From the NCBI GenBank assembly GCA_947258495.1, contig CAMYIN010000014.1, positions 1 to 58,536 of the forward strand: 58,536 bases of DNA, read 5' to 3'. The notes below the pieces were generated by a model. That model had not been told where the DNA came from. It saw only the letters and a program-made list of their open reading frames with translations, and ran no database searches. The translations under genes were made by a program, and so were the position numbers. Below, one piece after another: positions 7,540 through 22,290 of the stretch (its first letter is position 1; each line of letters begins with the position of its first letter). This DNA is from an uncultured Gammaproteobacteria bacterium (GTDB lineage: Bacteria > Pseudomonadota > Gammaproteobacteria > Arenicellales > JAANXG01).

Positions 7540-8553
7540 TCAGGTCGCCGGCCGGTCCCGTAACGCCTGCAGTTCGTCGTATAGACCCTGCGGGATGGTG
7601 ATGGACGCGGCGTTTGCGCGGGCGTGCAGACGCCCGCTGCCCGGTAACCGCGTCCCGGGCTGCTGGAGTATTGCATCGATCAGCACCTGCAACCGGACGA
7701 GGGCGGTGCCGGAGGACAACAGATCGCCGTGCAGGGCAAACAACAGCTGTCCAACTCCGGGGGGCGGGCCTTCCGCATCGAAGAACGACGACGCCTCGAA
7801 GCCGAAATTGGCGCCGGTCAAGGCGGCGGCCAGAACTTCCACCATCATCACCAGGGCGGCGCCCTTTGCATCGCCCATCGGCAACATGGTACCCGAGAGG
7901 GCGGCTTGCGGGTCCGTCGTCGGCCGACCCTCCGCGTCCAGGGCCCAGTCGGGCTCTATGGCCTGGCCGCGCTTGGCGGCGACCATGATCTTGCCCCGTG
8001 CCACCTTGCTCAGACTCAAATCGATGACCAAGGGCTCTGCATGGCGGCGCGGTGCTGCGAAGGCGATGGGGTTGGTGCCGAACAAGCCGGCGTGTCCACC
8101 CCAGGGCGCAATGGCCTTGGGACTGTTTCCGAAAATCAAGCCCACGCGGCCGCGCTTCGCGAGCTGTTCGACGTGGTAGCCGGCCTGGCCGAAGTGGTGC
8201 GAGCGATACACCGCCGCGACCGCGACGCCGGTGTCGTCGAGACGCGCATCCAGTTCGGCGACGGCGCGGGCCAGGGCGGGAAAAGCGAAGCCGTGTGCCG
8301 CGTCTACGCGCACCGCTGCGGCGGCGACGGATTCAACCACCGGGACCGCGTAACCGTCGACCTTGCCCGAAGCGGCCTGCGCGGCGTAGCTGGGCAGGCG
8401 CGACAGGCCGTGTCCCGATTGGCTGTCGATCTCGGCGGCGACCAGGGCATCGCTCACGCATTCCGCGTTCTCCAGGCTGGTGCCATGGCGTTGCAGGATC
8501 TCGACGCCCAGCGCCCTGCACGCGCTCGGGGTCAGTTCCACGCCGTCGCTCAT
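7540..8553 (-). CDS. comC: Malate/lactate dehydrogenase (Ldh2) family, (R)-sulfolactate dehydrogenase ComC-like
   Basis: MSDGVELTPSACRALGVEILQRHGTSLENAECVSDALVAAEIDSQSGHGLSRLPSYAAQAASGKVDG...; ATGA overlap with the upstream dehydrogenase; substrate inferred from neighbours suyAB. Confidence 0.8.
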   Translation of the reverse strand: MSDGVELTPSACRALGVEILQRHGTSLENAECVSDALVAAEIDSQSGHGLSRLPSYAAQAASGKVDGYAVPVVESVAAAAVRVDAAHGFAFPALARAVAELDARLDDTGVAVAAVYRSHHFGQAGYHVEQLAKRGRVGLIFGNSPKAIAPWGGHAGLFGTNPIAFAAPRRHAEPLVIDLSLSKVARGKIMVAAKRGQAIEPDWALDAEGRPTTDPQAALSGTMLPMGDAKGAALVMMVEVLAAALTGANFGFEASSFFDAEGPPPGVGQLLFALHGDLLSSGTALVRLQVLIDAILQQPGTRLPGSGRLHARANAASITIPQGLYDELQALRDRPAT

Positions 8554-9479
8554 GCCGATTCCAGCACCCTGCGCACGTTGGCGGCGGTGACCGCGCTCAC
8601 GCGCAGATTGGATTCCACCGTCACCCCGGCGACATGCGGCGTCAACAGCAGATTCGGCGCATCGCGGAAGCGGTTGCCGCACTCGGAGGAGAGCGGTTCG
8701 CTCTGGTAGACGTCCAGCGCCGCGCCGCCCAGGCGTCCGGCGCGCAGGGCCTCGACCAGCGCGTGCTCGTCCACGATCCCGCCGCGCGCCGTGTTGATCA
8801 ATACGGCGCCGGCTCTCATGGCCGAGAGCAAGCGGGCGTCGATGAGCCCGCGTGTGCCGTCGTCGAGCGGAACGTGCACGCTGACGACGTCGGAATCCGT
8901 GAACAGGGCCTGCAGTTCCCTGTACTGGACCTGATTCCAGGCCGGATCGTGGCGCTCCACGTAGGGGTCGTGGGCGAGAACGCGCATGCCCAGGGCGAGC
9001 GCGCGTTTCGCGGTTTCGCGGGCGATGCCGCCCAGGCCCACCAGCCCCAGCCGTTTGCCCTGCAGTTCGTGGCCGATGCAGTGCTGCCGCGGCCAGCGTC
9101 CCTCCATGACCGCGGAGCTGGCTGTGTAGCAGCCGCGAAGCAGAATCAGCGCCGCGGCGATGACGTATTCGGCGACGGCGTCGTCGTTGGCGCCGGAGGC
9201 GGGACATACCGCGATCCCTCGCCGCCGACAGGCGGCGACGTCTATGTTGTCCAGGCCGACGCCAAGGCGGCCGACGACACGCAGCCGCTCCGCTCGTTGC
9301 ACCAACGCGTCGTCCACCTGCGTTCGATTGCGCACGATCAAGCCGTCGGCGGCCGTGACGCGTTGCTGCAACTCCGCGGACTTGTCGGCGAGTTCCGGGC
9401 CGTAGTGCACGTCGAAATCCCGGCGCAGATCGGCAATCGCGCCTTCGTCCATGAACTCCGTAATCACAATGTGTTTCAT
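8550..9479 (-). CDS. slcC: D-2-hydroxyacid dehydrogenase family, (S)-sulfolactate dehydrogenase SlcC-like
   Basis: NAD-binding LVGLGGIARETAKRALALGMRVLAHDP, VINTARGGIVDEHALVEAL, catalytic LTPHVAG; context with comC/suyAB. Confidence 0.8.
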   Translation of the reverse strand: MKHIVITEFMDEGAIADLRRDFDVHYGPELADKSAELQQRVTAADGLIVRNRTQVDDALVQRAERLRVVGRLGVGLDNIDVAACRRRGIAVCPASGANDDAVAEYVIAAALILLRGCYTASSAVMEGRWPRQHCIGHELQGKRLGLVGLGGIARETAKRALALGMRVLAHDPYVERHDPAWNQVQYRELQALFTDSDVVSVHVPLDDGTRGLIDARLLSAMRAGAVLINTARGGIVDEHALVEALRAGRLGGAALDVYQSEPLSSECGNRFRDAPNLLLTPHVAGVTVESNLRVSAVTAANVRRVLESA

Positions 9480-9535: not shown

Positions 9536-9629
9536 GGGAGTGAGTGTCTGCGGGACCGTCGCCAGCATGGATGCTGGCGCCGCGCCTACAGGGGTGTATT
9601 CACGGCGTGTCCCGGAGATGCTCACTCTC
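9536..9629. repeat. Palindromic intergenic element (REP/MITE-like, about 94 bp)
   Basis: Ends GAGTGAGTGTCTGCGGGAC / GTCCCGGAGATGCTCACTC are imperfect inverted repeats; internal perfect hairpin CGCCAGCATGGATGCTGGCG. Confidence 0.65.
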
Positions 9630-9668: not shown

Positions 9669-10838
9669 TCATAGTCCGGTCAGGCGGCGCAACTCGGTGT
9701 GCAGCATGCTCATCAGTTCGATGCCGATCCCCGGGGTGTCGTGGCCGCGGGTGTGGCCGTCGACGATGGCGATGTCGTCGGCGAAGCCGCCGAAGGGTTG
9801 AAACACGCCGGGGTAGGATTCCGATCCGCCGGTCTGCAGGCCGAGGGCGATATTCAGCGCCAGCTGGTGCCCCCCGTGGGGGATGAGGCGTCGCCGCGAC
9901 CAGCCGTGGGACTCGGTGAGCCGGATGACCCGCAGGTATTCCGTGAGTCCGTAACTCAAGGCCGGATCCAGTTGGATCCAGTCGCGGTCGGGGCGCAGGC
10001 CGGCGTAGCGAAGCAGGTTCGCAAGGTCCTGATGCGAGAACAGGTTCTCGCCGGTGGCAATGGGGCCGGCATAGTGCTGCGCCAGGGTGGCGTGCAGCAG
10101 GTAGTCCAGCGGGTCCCCCGGCTCCTCGAACCAGAACAGGTCGAAGCCACGCATGGCGTCGCCATAGGCCAGGGCCGTGCGCAGGTCGAAGCGGCCATTG
10201 GCGTCGACCGCCAGGCTCTGCCCGCTGCCGACCACCTCGAGCACGGCCTCGATGCGCCGCAGGTCGGTATCCAGATCGGCGCCCCCGATTTTCATCTTCA
10301 CGACGCGATACCCCTGGTCACGATAACGCCGGATCTCTTCTCGAAGCTGAGGCAGTTCCTTGCCGGGGTAGTAATACCCGCCGCCGGGGTAGACCAGTAC
10401 CTGCTCGTCGTGATGGCCGTCGTTGTAACGTTGTGAAAGCAGCCGCCACAGGGGTTGCCCGGCGATTTTCGCCACCGCGTCCCACACCGCCATGTCCAGG
10501 GCGCCCGCCGCCACCGCACGGTCGCCGTGGCCGCCGGGTTTTTCGTTTCGCATAAAAACGTCCCAGATCTTCGCCGGATCGAGGTTGTCTCCGCTGTCTT
10601 CGATCAGCTCCGCGGGATCGGCTTCCATGAGGCGGGGGATGAAACGCTCGCGCAGGATCCCGCCCTGGGCGTAGCGACCGTTGGAACAGAAGCCGTAGCC
10701 GACGACGGTGGCGCCGTCGCGGACGACGTCCGACACCACGGCAACGACGCTGACCGTCATGCGGCTGAAATCGATATAGGCGTTGCGGATGGACGAGCTG
10801 ATGGGTGCGGTGCGTTCGCGTATTTCGACAATGCGCAC
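9669..10838 (-). CDS. Mandelate racemase/muconate lactonizing enzyme family (enolase superfamily), possibly D-tartrate dehydratase-like; GTG start proposed
   Basis: VVKMKIGG (KxK), AVDANGRFD, FWFEEPGD, ATGENLFS, LIPHGGHQLALNIALGLQTGG metal/catalytic motifs. The supplied ORF runs upstream through tctB in another frame; GTG at 10838 lies just after the tctB stop. Confidence 0.82.
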   Translation of the reverse strand: MRIVEIRERTAPISSSIRNAYIDFSRMTVSVVAVVSDVVRDGATVVGYGFCSNGRYAQGGILRERFIPRLMEADPAELIEDSGDNLDPAKIWDVFMRNEKPGGHGDRAVAAGALDMAVWDAVAKIAGQPLWRLLSQRYNDGHHDEQVLVYPGGGYYYPGKELPQLREEIRRYRDQGYRVVKMKIGGADLDTDLRRIEAVLEVVGSGQSLAVDANGRFDLRTALAYGDAMRGFDLFWFEEPGDPLDYLLHATLAQHYAGPIATGENLFSHQDLANLLRYAGLRPDRDWIQLDPALSYGLTEYLRVIRLTESHGWSRRRLIPHGGHQLALNIALGLQTGGSESYPGVFQPFGGFADDIAIVDGHTRGHDTPGIGIELMSMLHTELRRLTGL

Positions 10839-10843
10839 AGTCG

Positions 10844-11314
10844 TTACCCGGTGAACAGGCGGCCGGCCGGCAGGGGCACCAGTAGAACCTTGTTGAACAG
10901 GAAATAAAACCCCAGCACGATTGCCGTTCCAACCAAGGGGTAAACGAAAACTCGGGCCCGGGTCCACGGGTCGTACATCGCCAGCAGCATGATCGCCATG
11001 AACGCCGCCAAGCCGGAGAGCAGGAAACCCAAATAGGGCATCGACAGCGCGGCGACCAGCAGTACGATCACCAGCCCGACTCGGCGCATCGTCGATTCGG
11101 GTCCGCGTTGGACGCGGTCCGGCGGACGCGCGAGGTTCCAGACAATGGAAGCGATGCAAAACACGATCAGCGAGCCGGCGACGGTGCGGGGAAACACGTA
11201 AGAATCGGCGTCCGCGTAATCCAGCGTGTCCCACAATGCCAGCACGCCAACGAGGACGAATACAGCGGCCACGACCATTCCGCCGATGTCGCGCGACGCG
11301 GGATCAGCGCGCAT
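10844..11314 (-). CDS. Tripartite tricarboxylate transporter, small membrane subunit TctB family
   Basis: 156 aa, four hydrophobic helices, located between TctA and the enolase-family gene. Confidence 0.8.
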   Translation of the reverse strand: MRADPASRDIGGMVVAAVFVLVGVLALWDTLDYADADSYVFPRTVAGSLIVFCIASIVWNLARPPDRVQRGPESTMRRVGLVIVLLVAALSMPYLGFLLSGLAAFMAIMLLAMYDPWTRARVFVYPLVGTAIVLGFYFLFNKVLLVPLPAGRLFTG

Positions 11315-11493: not shown

Positions 11494-13002
11494 TCAGTCG
11501 GCACGGGCGAACTCCCGTTTGACGCGAAGGCGGTTCAACAGCAACGGTGAGAACAAAGACAGCAGAATGAAGGCGAAAATGCCCAGCGAAATGGGCCGGC
11601 CGAAGAACTGGCCCCACAGGTTGTCCGCCGCCGCACCGATGATCCAACCCTGGACGAATCCCTGTTCCGCAATCGATCCCAGTATCAGACCCAGGACGAT
11701 GGGCGATGCGCTGAATCCGAAGCGGCCCAATACCCACCCCAAGACGCCGAGGATCGTCATGATTACGACGTCGGAGACGCTGTTGCGTATGGAGTAGGTC
11801 CCGATCAGAGTCATGAACGCCACCGTAGGTACCAGCATCGCCTTGGGCACGGTGACGATGGAGCGGTAGGCGTACCGTCCGATGAGCAAGCCGGTCGGCA
11901 GCATCAGCACGGTGGCGAGCAACAGCCCCCAAATGAAGACGTAGACGATGGAACCGTGCTCGGTGAACAGGTTGGGACCGGTGCGCACGCCCTGGATAAG
12001 CAAAGCGCCGAGGATCACGGCGTCGGGCGGTGTGCCGGGTATGCCCAGCACCAGAGTGGGAATAAAGCCGCCGCCGACCGTCGCGTTGTTGGCCGATTCC
12101 GTGGCCTGCACGCCCTCGGGCGCACCGCCCCCGAATCTTTCCTGTTGCTTCGACGATCGTCGCGCCTCGGAATAAGCCACCAGGCCGGCGATGGAGCCGC
12201 CGGCGCCGGGGAGGATACCCACCAGGGTGCCGATGACGGAGCTGCGTGCCAGGTTGAATTTGCTCCGCCAGGAAATGTTCAAGGCTTCCCGCAGTCGAAA
12301 TCCCCGCGACGCTTCTTCGACCTTCAAATGGCGGTCCGGGGTCGCCACCAGATCGATCAGCACCGGAACGCAGTACAGGCCGATGAGCGCCGAAACCACC
12401 TCGATCCCACCGAGCAGGGTCTGGCTGCCGAAGGTCAAGCGGACATCGGCGCTGATTTCGGCCACGCCGATGCACGACAACAACAACCCGAAACACGCGC
12501 CGATGAGTCCTTTGAGCAGATTCCCCTGGGACAGCGCCGATATCAGGGTAAGCCCCAATATCGCCAGCCAGAAGTACTCGACCGGTCCGAAGGCAAGCGC
12601 GACGTTGGCAAGCGGCGGCGCCAGCGACAGCAGAAACACGGCGCCCACCAGCCCGCCGCATACCGAGGCGATACAGGCGAGGGTAATGGCCAGGTCGCCG
12701 TCGCCCCGTTTGGCCATGGGAAAGCCGTCGAAGGTGGTAGCTATGGCCGAGGGTGTGCCCGGCGTATTCAACAGGATGGCTGCGTAGGCACCGCCGTAGA
12801 TTGCGCCGGTATATATGGCGCCCATCAGGATCAGCGCAGACGCGGGCTCCATGGAAAAGGTGACCGGGATCAGTACCGCCACCGCCATGGTCGCGGTCAG
12901 CCCCGGCAGTGAGCCGACGACGGTCCCGGCGACGACGCCCCCCAGCGCGAGTGCAACATGGTAGGGGGTGAGCGCCGCTAGCAGGTAACCCAGACTGTTC
13001 AT
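11494..13002 (-). CDS. Tripartite tricarboxylate transporter, large permease subunit TctA family
   Basis: GVVAGTVVGSLPGLTATMAVAVLIPVTFSMEP...IPGTPPDAVILGALLIQGVRTGP. Confidence 0.93.
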   Translation of the reverse strand: MNSLGYLLAALTPYHVALALGGVVAGTVVGSLPGLTATMAVAVLIPVTFSMEPASALILMGAIYTGAIYGGAYAAILLNTPGTPSAIATTFDGFPMAKRGDGDLAITLACIASVCGGLVGAVFLLSLAPPLANVALAFGPVEYFWLAILGLTLISALSQGNLLKGLIGACFGLLLSCIGVAEISADVRLTFGSQTLLGGIEVVSALIGLYCVPVLIDLVATPDRHLKVEEASRGFRLREALNISWRSKFNLARSSVIGTLVGILPGAGGSIAGLVAYSEARRSSKQQERFGGGAPEGVQATESANNATVGGGFIPTLVLGIPGTPPDAVILGALLIQGVRTGPNLFTEHGSIVYVFIWGLLLATVLMLPTGLLIGRYAYRSIVTVPKAMLVPTVAFMTLIGTYSIRNSVSDVVIMTILGVLGWVLGRFGFSASPIVLGLILGSIAEQGFVQGWIIGAAADNLWGQFFGRPISLGIFAFILLSLFSPLLLNRLRVKREFARAD

Positions 13003-13046: not shown

Positions 13047-14006
13047 TTACTTAATGACGCCGGCTTCCTTCGCTGCGGCGACGTAGGCCTGCCGCTTCTC
13101 GTCCATGAATGCCTTCATGCCTTTGTAATCCACGTCCACCAGCGCAAATCCGTCGTTCTCCATTTTCTGTTTGAATGCGGGATCCGCATTTATCTGCCCG
13201 ATCATGGAGGACAATTTTTCGCGCACGTTTTCCGGCGTGGAGTTGGGCACCGCGATGCCGCGGTACGCGCCGGAGACGATGTCGAAACCCAGTTCCTTGA
13301 AGGTCGGAACATCGGGGAAGCGCGGGTGCCGCTGCTCCATCGCCACCGCCAGCAAGCGCACTTTGTCGGCGTGTTTTGCCCCCACGGAGGTGTATCCCCA
13401 CTGCCCGGTCACCTGGTTGCCCAGCAGCGCGGTCACCGAGGCGCCGGTTCCTTTGAACGCCACGTAGGTGGTCTTGACGCCCGCCAGCTTGTCAAATGTC
13501 ACCTGAGCGAGGTGGTTGGCGGTGCCTTTTCCGGATCCCGAGAAGGTGATCTTGCCCGGATTGCTCTTGGCGTGGTCGATCACGTCCTGAAGGGTCTTGA
13601 ACGGGCTGTCGTCCGACACCACCACGGCGTCGGGGGTGTAGTGGAACATGTAGATCAACGCCAGTTCGTCGGTCTTGAAACCCACGTCCTTCTGCAGGGG
13701 CTTGACGATGATGTGAGGCAGGTTTATCCCCATGATGTTGTAGCCGTCTCCGGGCATGTCGTTCAGCTGCGACCAACCTACTGCGCCACCCCCGCCGGGT
13801 TTGTAGGATATCACCAGGTCCTGTCCGAATTTCTTCTTGAAGAACGCTTGCTGGTGGCGAGCGGTGATATCGGATTCTCCGCCCGGCCCGAAGGGGATCA
13901 CGTAACTGATGGGTTTTTCGGGGTATTCCGCGGACGCTACGGACGCGGTTAATGCCAGCGCCGCGGCCAGAGCCGTAAATATGCCTCGCTTCTTACTCGT
14001 GAACAT
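13047..14006 (-). CDS. Tripartite tricarboxylate transporter substrate-binding protein TctC family
   Basis: Signal peptide then YPEKPISYVIPFGPGGESDITARHQQAFFKKKFGQDLVISYKPGGGGAVGW; typical Bug/TctC fold. Confidence 0.93.
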   Translation of the reverse strand: MFTSKKRGIFTALAAALALTASVASAEYPEKPISYVIPFGPGGESDITARHQQAFFKKKFGQDLVISYKPGGGGAVGWSQLNDMPGDGYNIMGINLPHIIVKPLQKDVGFKTDELALIYMFHYTPDAVVVSDDSPFKTLQDVIDHAKSNPGKITFSGSGKGTANHLAQVTFDKLAGVKTTYVAFKGTGASVTALLGNQVTGQWGYTSVGAKHADKVRLLAVAMEQRHPRFPDVPTFKELGFDIVSGAYRGIAVPNSTPENVREKLSSMIGQINADPAFKQKMENDGFALVDVDYKGMKAFMDEKRQAYVAAAKEAGVIK

Positions 14007-14039: not shown

Positions 14040-15209
14040 TTATGCGCTTCGATACAGTTTCGTCAACACGAACTCTCTATGACCCAACGCCTCGGCCGCG
14101 GTCAACCTCCCGTTACAGGTCCGGAGTGTCATATCGATGAGACGATCTCCCGCCTCGTCCAGGGTCATCTCGCGCCGCAACAGACCGGAAACGTCTACGT
14201 CGATGTGTTCTTTCATGGTACGCACGGTGCGCGGGTTGCCGCTGAGCTTGATCACCGGTTCGATGGGATTGCCGATAATGTTGCCTTGACCGGTCGGAAA
14301 AAGATGTACGACGAAACCCGCAGCCGCCTGAAGCGTAACACACTCCGCAGCGGCGGATGAGGTATCCATGAAGTACAGACCCGCCCCCCTGCCGGGCGTC
14401 TCAGCTGGCGCCAGAACGTCGATGAACTGAGTCTTCTTCCCTATTTTTTCCAGGTTGCCGAAGGCCTTTTCTTCGATCGTAGTCAGTCCGCCTTCGATGT
14501 TTCCCTTGGTAGGCTGACTTTCCGAGAGATCGTTGGTTTTATAGGGTTCGATGACTTCATCCATATAGGCCTGCCAGGTGTCCATGAACTTCTGTGCCAC
14601 TTCCGGCGTTTTCGCCCGCGAGGCGCATACGCGCTCGGCCCCGGTAATCTCGGAGGTCTCGCCGAAACACGTCGTCGCCCCCAATGGATTGAGTTTGTCG
14701 ATCAAGTTGCCCACCGTTGGGTTCGCAGATAAGCCCGATGTGGTGTCCGATTCGCCGCATTTCACGGATACCCAGAGATCGGAGAGACCGCATTCCTCGC
14801 GCTGCAGCTCGGAGGCCCATTGCAGATAATCCTTGGCCTTGCGGCTGGCGGCGGCGATGGTGTCTATGTCGCCGATCTGTTCGATGGCGAAACCTTCGAC
14901 CGGTTTGCCGGTATCGGCGATCCCCTCCACCACGCGGTTGGTCCAACCGGGCTCGATGCCGATGACGACGACCGCGGCGACGTTGGGATTCGATCCGGTG
15001 CCTATCAGGGTTCGAAAGAACAGCTCGAGATCTGCACCGAACTGCAATCGACCATAGGCGTGGGGAATGGCCAACGCGCCCTTGATGTTGTTGGCGACGG
15101 CTTCCGCGGCCGCATTGGAGAGATCGTCCAACGGTAGAATCACGACGTGATTCCGCACGCCGACCCTGCTGTTTTCACGGCGATATCCCCAAAATCTATC
15201 GGTTAGCAT
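14040..15209 (-). CDS. suyB: Sulfolactate sulfo-lyase large subunit SuyB (UxaA family)
   Basis: [92 protein letters not shown]...[13 protein letters not shown] at 15209 preferred to the GTG at 15218. Confidence 0.9.
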
Positions 15210-15211
15210 AG

Positions 15212-15493
15212 CTACCACCTTTTGGTTTTCAGGTTGTGGACATGGACGTGGCCACCTTTGGGTATATCGGCGATTGCTCGGCCAATATCGTGGCCATATT
15301 TCAGGACGGTGTCGCCGCTCGCTATATCTTGAAGAGCGAGCTTGTGCCCGATCGGTACGTCGTCGAGCACCTGAATGTCGAGAGATGCGTCTCCGTTCAT
15401 CACCCAGCCGGTCAGGGTCTGATTGGCTTTGACGTCTTCGGTGACGATCACCCCGACGCTGTCTTCGGAGTCGTGTACGAGAAAATGGATCAT
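15212..15493 (-). CDS. suyA: Sulfolactate sulfo-lyase small subunit SuyA (SAF domain)
   Basis: [93 protein letters not shown]. Confidence 0.9.
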
Positions 15494-18194: not shown

Positions 18195-21100
18195 TCAAAG
18201 CAGCACCCGCTCAATGCCGCCCGAGTTCGCTTCGCGCACGAATTCTTGCATCCAGCGCTCGCCGCGTAATTGCCTCACCAGCTCAACCACCACATAGTCG
18301 GTATCCAGTGCGGTTTCCTCGACGTATCGCCCGAGGCCTTGCTGGCACGACGGGCAGGTAGTCAGTAATTTCACATTTCCATCGACCGCGCGGTCTTCTC
18401 CGGTCAGCTCGCGGATTCCTCCGCTCAGTTCTTGAAGCTTGCGCAGCCTTACTTGAGTCGCGACGTCCGGACGCGAGACAGCAAAGGTTCCCGCTTCGCC
18501 GCAGCAACGGTCCGACAATGTAACCGGTCGCCCGGTCAGGGTGGATGCCACGACAAGCGGGCTATGGGTCTTCATCGGACTGTGACACGGATCGTGAAAC
18601 AGATATCGCACCTCTGAGTTGCCGTCGACGGCGACGCCCTTTTCCATCAAATATTCGTGAATATCGAGCAGGCGGCAACCGGGGAATATCTGCTCAAATT
18701 CGTATTGCAGCAGTTGATCCATACACGTCCCGCACGAGACCAGCACGGTCTTGATGTCGAGGTAGTTGAGAGAATTGGCGATGCGATGGAATAACACCCG
18801 GTTCTCGGTGGTGATGCGGTGGCCCTTGCCGATGTCGCCGCCGGAGGTCTGCGGGTAACCGCAGCACAGGTAGGCCGGGGGCAGCACCGTCTGCGCGCCC
18901 TCGTCGTAGAGCATTGCCAGTGCGGCGAGACCGATCTGGCTGAACAGCTTTTCTGAGCCGCAGCCGGGAAAATAGAACACCGCATCGGAATCATGGTTTA
19001 CCTTGAGGGGATTACGCAGGATCGGAACCGTGTCCCTGCTGCCGAAGTCGAGTAGCGACCGCATCGGCTTGGGCGGCAGCTTGCGCGACAACGGGCGGCT
19101 GATGAAATGTATGACTTGGTCCGTGATCGCCGGCCTGTTACTTGTCGCCGGTGGGCGATGCCTGAGCCTGCGAAGCCGCGGTATATCTCGGCACGCGCGG
19201 TACATCGCGCGTTGTGCTTTGAACCCAAGTTCTATCAACAATTTGCGCAGGATACTGATCGCTGTGGGATGCTTCAAGTTCAAAAAGGCCATGGTCAACA
19301 TCGTGCCTATACTGGATCGCCGTTTTCCGCGCTCCTTGAGTATCTTCCGCATGTGAACGGTAACATCCCCGAAATCGATGTCGACCGGACAGGGGTTGAG
19401 ACACTTGTGGCAAACAGTGCAGTGATCCGAGACGTCGTTCATTTCATCGAAATGTCTGCGCGAAAGGCCACGACGGGTCTGCTCTTCGTAGAGGAAGGCC
19501 TCGATGATGAGGCCCGTCGCGAGAATCTTGTTGCGCGGTGAATACTGAAGGTTTGCTCTCGGAGCGTGGGTGTTGCACCAGGGCTTGCATTTTCCACAGC
19601 GCAAACAGTTCTTGATCAAGTCGTTGAGTTTGCCCAATTCACTTTCTTCCAGAATGAGCGCCTCTTGTTGAACCAGTCGAAGCGAGGGTGTGTATGCGTT
19701 CTGCAATCCCGATCCCGTCAGAAGTTTTCCCCGATTGAAATGTCCCCATGGATCTACCCTCCGTTTGTAGTCGGCAAAGGCCTGCAACACATCGGAATCC
19801 AGGTAACGCAGCTTGGTCAAACCGATGCCATGTTCACCGGAAACGACGCCGCCGAGCGAACGTGCCAGATCCATGATCCTGTCGACGATTCTTTCCGCTT
19901 CGTGGAGCATTTCATAGTCGTTCGAATTAACAGGGATGTTGGTATGCACGTTTCCATCGCCTGCATGCATATGCAATGCGACGAACAGTCGACTGGTGCG
20001 AATATCGGCATGTATGGCGTCCAGGCGGTCTCTCACGACCAGCATGTCCCCACCGCCGAATAGTTCTTTGAGGGGTTTCTCCACTTCTTCGCGATAAGAA
20101 ATACGCAGCTGACGGCGCAGTAGAAGTTCCAGAAAACTGCTTTTGCGAATGAGGTCGGAGCCATGAGTTTCGATCATATCCGGAATCAAACGAGCAGCCG
20201 GCTCGTCAAGATGCTCGAGCACCGTACGCCAGCGCTTCTCCACGGTACGCAGCACGTTCAACGCGGTGCAGCGTTTTTCGTCAACAATTGCTTTGGTCTC
20301 GTCACTGAGTTCCAGGCGATGACCCGCCGACAGGAGTCCCAGGTCCCCCTCCAGGTAGACGCACACCGCCTCGATGATGCGCAGTTTGTTCAGTATCGAT
20401 TTCTCGATATTGATTCGCTCTACGCCCTCGTTGTAATCCGCGAGTCGTTCCAGGGGGATGACTACGTCTTCATTGATTTTGAACGCGTTGGTATGCGCCG
20501 CTATCGCCGCGGTGCGGGAACGATCCAGCCAGAATTGCTGACGGGCGATTTCGCTGACGGCAATGAATCCTTCCGCACCGCGCAAGTTGGCGAGCCGAAC
20601 GACTTGAGAGGCGGCCTGGGCGACTGCATCTTCCTCGTCCCCGCACACGTCCGCCAGGAGGATCATCTTGGGCAGTTCGCCGCGGGACGCTTTCGGCGAA
20701 TAATCGACGGCTTTCAAATAGCGCTCATCCATGTGCTCCAGCCCGGACAGTTCTGCCTGGCCCAGGCCCTCGATGAGGTCCTTTATCTCCACGATCGTGC
20801 GCACGGCGGGTCGAAGATCGTCGCCATAAAACTCGAGACATACGGTGCGGAAGAAATTGGGCGCGTCGTGAAGTACGAAAACCCCGGATGTGATGATGCC
20901 GTCGCAGCCTTCTTTCTGAATGCCGGGTAAGCCGCCCAGGAACTTGTCGGTGACGTCCTTGCCGAGTCCCTGCTTGCGTAGCGAATGGCCGGGGAAGCTC
21001 AGTATCTCGGGCTCTCCCACCGGCTCTGCTCCGAGTTCTGGAAAGCGGGTGACCTCGAATTGGACGACTTTCTGTTCATGGATCTTACCCAGATTGTGTT

Positions 21101-22052
21101 CATGACGACGCACCTCCAGCCAGTCTCCGTTCGGGGTCACCATGCGCCAAGACAGCAGGTTGTCCAGTGTGGTACCCCACATCACGGCTTTCTTACCGCC
21201 GGCATTCATGGCAATGTTGCCGCCGATGGTGGAGGCGTCCTGGGACGTCGGGTCCACCGCGAATACCTTGTTCCGTCGTGCCGCCAGATCCGCTACGCAG
21301 CGAGTCACGACGCCGGCCTCCGCGCGTACCGTGGCGACGGGCTTTTCGCACCCTGGAATCGTGACCGTCGTGACGGTGTCCAGCTTTTCCAGTTTCTCTG
21401 TATTGATTACCGCCGTATCTTCGCTGAGAGGTACGGCACCGCCGGTGTAACCGGTGCCGCCACCTCGCGGAACGATTGTCAATCCGAGTTCGATACAGGC
21501 TCGGACTATTGGAGAAGTCTCCTCCTCGTAATCCGGATAGATCACTACCAGTGGAAATTCGACGCGCCAATCGGTGGCATCGGTGACGTGGGCGACGCGG
21601 GCGAACCCCCCGAAATCGATGTTATCCGCGTGCGTACAACGGTGCAGCCTTTTTCGCACCCTTCGGCGTTGCGTGGCAATATATCCGAACCAGTCGGTGA
21701 AGCGCACCAGCGCTGCCCGGGCGGAATCGGCCAGCGCCAGGGCCTCGATGTTTCCTTGTGCCCGATCGACGATCTGATCGAGTCTTTGGTGCATCGCTTG
21801 TACCAGGGTATCCCGTCGTTTTTCGTTCGCAAGCAGATCGTCTTGAAGAAACGGATTCCGCCTGACCACCCACATGTCGCCCAGCACTTCGAACAACATG
21901 CGCGCAGAGCGACCGGTTTGTCTCGAACTTCGCAAGCGGTCCAAAATCTCCCAATTGTCTTCGCCGAGATACCGAATCACGATTTCTCGGTCCGAGAACG
22001 AAGTGTAGTTGTAGGGGATCTCGCGTATGCGACCGCCGGAATCCGGAATCAT
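18195..22052 (-). CDS. Large FAD/FMN-binding oxidoreductase fused to Fe-S (GlpC/CCG-like) domains, about 1285 aa
   Basis: FAD_binding_4 motif [29 protein letters not shown], two 4Fe-4S motifs ([23 protein letters not shown]), CCG motifs ([29 protein letters not shown]); start taken at 22052 ([15 protein letters not shown]). Confidence 0.88.
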
Positions 22053-22290
22053 GGTAGCTGCAGAATGAGACGCTGAAATGAGGCTGCGAATTGTAGTGCA
22101 TAGAGCCGCGGCACAACAGCCGAGCGGCCGTATTACTTGGCGACGACATACCGGCCGCAATGACGACAAATTGTACTTCTACTTTGCCGGTGCGGCTCTT
22201 TAGATTACGTGGTGTCAGGATCACGCGGCCCCGGACGCACAACGATGGTGGTGCGCGTGCTATATTTGTTTCTATGTTCTTGACGTATTC

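Follow-up and report, generated by a model that had tools for sequence, protein, structure and literature searches.

The window analyzed here, a stretch of 58,536 nucleotides from an uncultured gammaproteobacterium (contig CAMYIN010000014.1), carries on its minus strand an operon with the order suyA, suyB, tctC, tctA, tctB, a gene encoding a protein similar to D-tartrate dehydratase (TarD), slcC, and comC (Table 1). The sixth of these, hereafter the TarD-like gene, is a complete open reading frame with its GTG start at 10838 and its stop codon at 9669–9671, and 5 nt lie between it and the end of tctB. On its other side, a gap of 190 nt to slcC contains a palindrome-bearing stretch, present as a single copy in the window, that may represent a REP-like element or else a terminator or regulatory site internal to the operon. 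For suyB, the ATG at 15209 is the likely start, and the longest open reading frame begins at a GTG at 15218. Upstream of the operon, an open reading frame of 1324 aa resembling a fusion of an FAD-linked oxidase and an iron-sulfur protein was observed (18195–22169, minus strand); it is also found upstream of the cluster in one relative of the window genome (L099).

Table 1. Coordinates of the operon genes and of the non-coding feature in the window.
Feature	Position	Strand	Remarks
suyA, sulfolactate sulfo-lyase small subunit	15212..15493	-	93 aa, SAF domain
suyB, sulfolactate sulfo-lyase large subunit	14040..15209	-	intact
tctC / slcH-type solute-binding protein	13047..14006	-	Pfam TctC
tctA / slcG-type large permease	11494..13002	-	Pfam TctA, 468 bits
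tctB / slcF-type small permease	10844..11314	-	Pfam TctB
TarD-like enolase-superfamily gene	9669..10838	-	389 aa, GTG start; candidate sulfolactate-acting enzyme
Palindrome-bearing non-coding stretch	9550..9605	-	18-nt near-perfect palindrome at 9561-9578
slcC, candidate (S)-sulfolactate dehydrogenase	8550..9479	-	2-hydroxyacid dehydrogenase family
comC, candidate (R)-sulfolactate dehydrogenase	7540..8553	-	Ldh_2 family

The window SuyB retains all 132 columns that are invariant among 43 other SuyB proteins and is 69–75% identical to proteins encoded beside hpsN/hpsO in Cupriavidus pinatubonensis and to the sulfolactate-cluster protein of Paracoccus seriniphilus, whose cluster has the order suyA-suyB-tctC-tctA-slcC-comC-exporter. 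On account of these matches and the conserved columns, the operon is a sulfolactate operon, in agreement with the original prediction. Identities of 47–66% were obtained between the window suyA and suyA genes beside suyB in other genomes, and of 65–94% between the window tctA and those of other sulfolactate clusters. The roles of slcC and comC are assigned by homology and synteny: slcC is 49–68% identical to the gene in the same position of other suy clusters, and the best NCBIfam match of comC is L-sulfolactate dehydrogenase, with a score of 178 bits that lies under the cut-off of 500.

In 2010, Denger and Cook reportedly described a set of eight genes for sulfolactate degradation, encoding SuyR, SlcHFG, SlcC, ComC, and SuyAB, in which no enolase-superfamily enzyme occurs. 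The transporter part of such an eight-gene cluster is documented for Chromohalobacter salexigens (PMC5812351). Common to this cluster and the window are suyAB, slcC, comC, and a tripartite tricarboxylate transporter (TTT) in which tctB follows tctA; in contrast, the window has the TarD-like gene as a ninth catabolic gene between tctB and slcC, and no match to two GntR proteins from sulfolactate clusters (the SuyR type of regulator) was found within it.

The TarD-like protein belongs to the enolase superfamily and, within it, to the mandelate racemase subgroup. Both Pfam domains, MR_MLE_C (137 bits) and MR_MLE_N (29 bits), score above the cut-off. All motifs on which the original prediction relied (KMK, DANG, EEPG, GENL, and PHGGHQ) were found, with the gene placed as described there between the transporter (tctC-tctA-tctB) and the two dehydrogenases (slcC-comC). 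The resemblance to tartrate dehydratases, which had been suspected from the C-terminal motif, proved stronger than anticipated. Identity to D-tartrate dehydratase (TarD; 2DW6/2DW7) amounts to 63%, and phmmer returned E values of 8e-174 to 4KEM and 4e-166 to 2DW7. By structural alignment, the nearest solved structures are 4KEM (66% identity) and Bradyrhizobium TarD (62–63%), all others being below 30%. An AlphaFold model (pLDDT 92) superimposes on TarD structures with TM-scores of 0.93–0.97 and on 4KEM with 0.97. The catalytic set of the window protein, K181, K183, D212, E238, E264, and the D291-H321 pair, corresponds to K182, K184, D213, E239, E265, and D292-H322 of TarD. No variation at the K-x-K motif (barrel strand 2), the metal ligands (strands 3–5), or the Asp-His dyad was seen among 27 clade members and 35 proteins from the TarD side. 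By full-length sequence and fold, the protein is thus a member of the TarD family, sharing with TarD of Bradyrhizobium (2DW6, 2DW7, 1TZZ) and with Azospirillum 4KEM the fold, the K-x-K motif, the three metal ligands, and the dyad; identity alone would label it a TarD.

What sets the window protein apart from TarD and 4KEM is its separate clade, its diverged positions, and its setting in sulfolactate clusters. Relatives were collected from a genome scan (80 loci), from the window's own relatives, and from Hyphomicrobiaceae, their neighborhoods were read for as much as about 10 kb in either direction, and a maximum-likelihood tree was built from 68 proteins. The window protein falls into a clade of 29 members (support 100/100) that is sister to the clade of TarD proper, not inside it; the opposite side of the tree holds TarD and 4KEM together with almost every unlinked protein. 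Within 7 kb, suyB, slcC, or comC accompanies 26 of the 29 clade members versus 2 of 89 loci outside the clade (Fisher p about 1e-20, uncorrected for shared ancestry). Mapped onto the tree, the linkage label requires 5 changes, versus 21.5 in label shuffles. The extra gene therefore recurs in sulfolactate clusters, as had been proposed. Two findings together had been named in advance as telling against a sulfonate-related role, namely high identity to a characterized dehydratase and lack of linkage to suyAB; the former was obtained with TarD, but the latter was not, since the linkage is strongly conserved. It persists across different gene orders (tctB-tarD-slcC, suyB-tarD, and suyB-GNAT-like-tarD-comC) and alongside different transporters (TTT, TRAP, or a lone binding protein). 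The two linked genes outside the clade (L037 and L199) both retain TarD-type pocket residues and appear to encode TarD-type enzymes that were recruited later and independently.

The window gene accordingly represents a subfamily of its own within the TarD family, one associated with sulfolactate clusters, in which fold, metal ligands, and acid/base residues are complete. It is not a general component of such clusters: a TarD-family neighbor was found at 1 of 45 suyB loci in class-wide samples, and most suyB clusters lack the gene. As most of the genomes are draft metagenome bins, a missing gene carries less weight than one that is present. For two clade members (L004 and L013), sulfolactate genes are absent from the neighborhood and a true SuyB from the genome. 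These alphaproteobacterial genes (L004:1770-2930 and L013:10001-11167) share another conserved neighborhood, in which genes resembling, by eye, a gamma-glutamyltransferase, a HAD-type hydrolase, a CoA-transferase, and a thiolase were seen; this neighborhood suggests a further role for the window protein's clade.

The clade is set apart from TarD proper by 19 positions, the catalytic residues being unchanged. From TarD to the window protein, they include N53 to C, A152 to P, A153 to G, F291 to L, C293 to P, S328 to A, and N340 to S, and each of these TarD residues is constant in 35 of 35 TarD-side proteins. Diverged sites occur in the 50s loop (N53), at the end of barrel strand 1 (A152, A153), and at the end of strand 8 (N340), and F291 and C293 are both neighbors of the catalytic D292 (TarD numbering). 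Several of the 19 positions would thus line the pocket, their placement being taken qualitatively from the strand ends. Along the sequence, 3 of the 19 fall within 4 residues of a catalytic residue, with about 2.6 expected from a rough hand count, i.e., without enrichment.

In Filomicrobium and relatives (L151, L152, L154, L155, and L156), the complete order GntR-suyAB-tctCAB-tarD-slcC-comC is found, including the GntR regulator known from the C. salexigens cluster. Because suyAB, slcC, comC, and tarD are held together in these clusters, the TarD-like enzyme is not a simple replacement for SuyAB. In other Hyphomicrobiaceae, the transporters differ, and tarD lies directly after suyAB or one gene off; direct suyAB-tarD neighbors occur at five loci (L159, L209, L210, L213, and L214). 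Nine Hyphomicrobiaceae genomes with suyAB and tarD (G075, G090, G092, G093, G094, G095, G097, G098, and G167) have no slcC, either locally or genome-wide, the best matches reaching at most 44% identity and the top ones being mostly of SerA size. In these genomes, comC lies near tarD in six and elsewhere in the genome in three.

The opposite pattern was found in the window's own family. In five relatives, four congeners and one sister-genus genome, tctCAB-tarD-slcC-comC is intact and the neighboring suyAB carries disruptions that differ from genome to genome. The lesions upstream of tctC (L097, L098, L099, L100, and L101) comprise frameshifts, internal deletions, and near-complete loss; they were read from draft assemblies, in which assembly error is a possible source. 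In these suyAB-decayed relatives, dN/dS is 0.05–0.12 for tarD versus 0.12–0.27 for slcC and comC; tarD is under strong purifying selection and is the steadiest enzyme of the cluster in the lineages compared. The loss of suyAB has other explanations, since a second SuyAB is encoded elsewhere in four of the five genomes (G002, G004, G005, and G006), sharing a contig with hpsN/hpsO in G005 and G006, and Xsc is present in the remaining one, G001. In that genome (97% complete), a true SuyB was found nowhere. Xsc is likewise present in G002, G004, G005, and G007, and G007, which lost suyB, has no tarD. Simple replacement of SuyAB, an idea that arose from the decayed copies in the window's relatives, was set aside, as it is weakened by the intact suyAB of Hyphomicrobiaceae, the SuyAB copies elsewhere, Xsc, and the decay of suyB in G007 in the absence of tarD.

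Several further loci were noted alongside these comparisons. On the L037 contig, a TarD-type gene with a putative SuyZ/YeiH-type sulfite exporter next to it occurs together with tctABC, slcC, and comC, and no true SuyB was found in the genome. In a member of the same family as the window that lacks the TarD-like gene (L112:7682-9839), a suyB remnant of about 61 residues directly precedes an intact slcC-comC pair, and Xsc is encoded elsewhere. Inspection by eye showed a sulfatase-like gene after comC in congeners of the window genome (L002:13134-14768, minus strand) and, in the sister genus, a long gene resembling one for a secreted protein, inserted after tctB and before tarD (L101:7243-9180, minus strand).

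To our knowledge, only SuyAB removes the sulfonate of sulfolactate directly, and racemization of sulfolactate is credited to the SlcC/ComC pair. From the linkage and the active site, the TarD-like enzyme probably acts on sulfolactate in some way. More specifically, we give a probability of roughly 0.55 to the reading that a Mg-dependent enolase-superfamily enzyme derived from D-tartrate dehydratase either breaks the C–S bond of sulfolactate or racemizes it, and can stand in for SuyAB or SlcC. Sulfolactate is an analog of malate and tartrate in which a sulfonate replaces the distal carboxylate. In TarD, Yew et al. in 2006 are said to have assigned a mechanism in which the lysine takes the C2 proton to give a Mg-stabilized enediolate, and the C3 hydroxyl is then expelled with the help of the histidine. 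By analogy, the carboxylate and 2-hydroxyl of sulfolactate would bind Mg2+, and K183 or H321 would take the C2 proton to form a Mg-stabilized enediolate. This shared first step could have two ends. Either the C3 group leaves, which would be sulfite here instead of the hydroxide of TarD, giving enolpyruvate and then pyruvate, or the proton is returned on the other face.

The former outcome, Mg-dependent elimination of sulfite by a SuyAB-independent sulfo-lyase, is put forward tentatively as the leading candidate. The reaction would be the same as that of SuyAB, the (R)-sulfolactate sulfo-lyase of the UxaA/GarD family, i.e., sulfolactate to pyruvate and sulfite. Fold and cofactor would nevertheless be unrelated, and the enzyme, encoded separately from SuyAB in the same operon, would work beside it or in its place. 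Either activity would act on sulfolactate itself and would make slcC dispensable, provided that the S enantiomer is accepted. The CIP descriptor flips between (2S)-tartrate and sulfolactate; if the face of proton removal in TarD has been kept, (R)-sulfolactate would be preferred, and the loss of slcC would then not be explained.

Racemization, the second outcome, would proceed by 1,1-proton transfer between K183 and H321 as in mandelate racemase, converting (S)- to (R)-sulfolactate, the enantiomer for which SuyAB is specific, in a single step and either alongside the SlcC/ComC redox pair or instead of it. It is mechanistically possible because the window protein shares subgroup and acid/base pair with mandelate racemase, although the two are only about 20% identical in structural alignment. 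The two acid/base residues are the same throughout the clade, suyAB and tarD are direct neighbors at several loci, SuyAB could receive the product in trans in G002, G004, G005, and G006, and racemization by two dehydrogenases cannot run in the nine slcC-less Hyphomicrobiaceae genomes. On its own, however, a racemase is doubtful: it would be redundant wherever slcC and comC both occur, it would leave the intact cluster of G001 without SuyB unexplained unless sulfolactate goes via sulfopyruvate and Xsc, and an enediolate bearing a beta-sulfonate should tend toward sulfite loss, given that sulfite leaves such an enediolate more readily than hydroxide does. The sulfo-lyase is slightly favored because it also fits the decay of suyAB, the SuyB-less G001 and L037 genomes, and this leaving-group character. 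A further alternative, unlikely in our estimate, is that the enzyme dehydrates D-tartrate or a similar small dihydroxy acid, having come with the dicarboxylate transporter, whose second substrate it serves. TarD dehydrates D-tartrate to oxaloacetate, a turnover reportedly described by Yew et al. in 2006 (cited in PMC10079672). Its kcat/Km on this substrate is 8.5e4 per M per s. The identity of 63%, TM-scores of 0.95–0.97, the retention of all catalytic residues, and the near-typical TarD proteins of L037 and L199 in similar clusters agree with such a role. Against it, the window protein belongs to a clade apart from TarD proper, with altered residues in the pocket, the linkage follows suyAB, slcC, and comC whatever the transporter, and it is not evident why D-tartrate should matter to sulfolactate clusters in several families.

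The degradation of both plant sulfolipid sugars and marine DHPS passes through sulfolactate as a major intermediate. If the enzyme does act as a sulfo-lyase or racemase, a central step of organosulfonate breakdown would have a second solution, unrelated in structure, a new C–S lyase or racemase would have arisen from a dehydratase through pocket-confined changes, and genome-based prediction of sulfolactate use would change, as clusters without suyAB or slcC may still function. In a literature search, mostly outside subscription journals, no link of TarD or mandelate racemase homologs to sulfolactate was found, tartrate dehydratase and sulfolactate co-occurred only as separate mentions, and no description of a role for a TarD-like enzyme in sulfolactate clusters was encountered.

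The original prediction had listed an upstream dehydration first and a direct sulfolactate racemase or epimerase second, but not the elimination of sulfite. Dehydration was considered in two forms. In the form of a tartrate-like hydroxysulfonate dehydrated to a 2-oxo-sulfonate (sulfopyruvate), this was rejected by chemical reasoning, as the step is awkward: the substrate would be an unstable alpha-hydroxysulfonate. A sulfosugar acid as the polyhydroxy sulfonate dehydrated upstream of sulfolactate has a precedent in sulfofucose degradation, in which SfcF, the sulfogalactonate dehydratase of Paracoccus wurundjeri, is an enolase-superfamily enzyme clustered with SlcC, ComC, and SuyAB (PMC12421959), the one published case of this kind that the literature search yielded. 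SfcF likewise contains PF13378/PF02746, and in L213 and L210 a gluconolactonase-like gene, identified by eye, adjoins suyAB-tarD. This explanation is nevertheless improbable. SfcF belongs to a sugar-oxidizing pathway, but no sugar dehydrogenase, lactonase, or aldolase was found within the window operon or the Filomicrobium clusters, and the TarD pocket takes a C4 acid. Identity with SfcF itself was rejected: the window protein lies on a different branch and is only about 26% identical to the likely Sinorhizobium mexicanum counterpart, used as a stand-in for the original SfcF sequence. Separately, one suyAB cluster was seen to encode another enolase-superfamily protein (L167:9131-10255, plus strand), flanked by a TauE-type exporter on one side and slcC-comC on the other. 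With 29% identity to the window enzyme and 26–27% to the SfcF-like protein of L228, it is possibly a third enolase-superfamily branch recruited to sulfolactate clusters.
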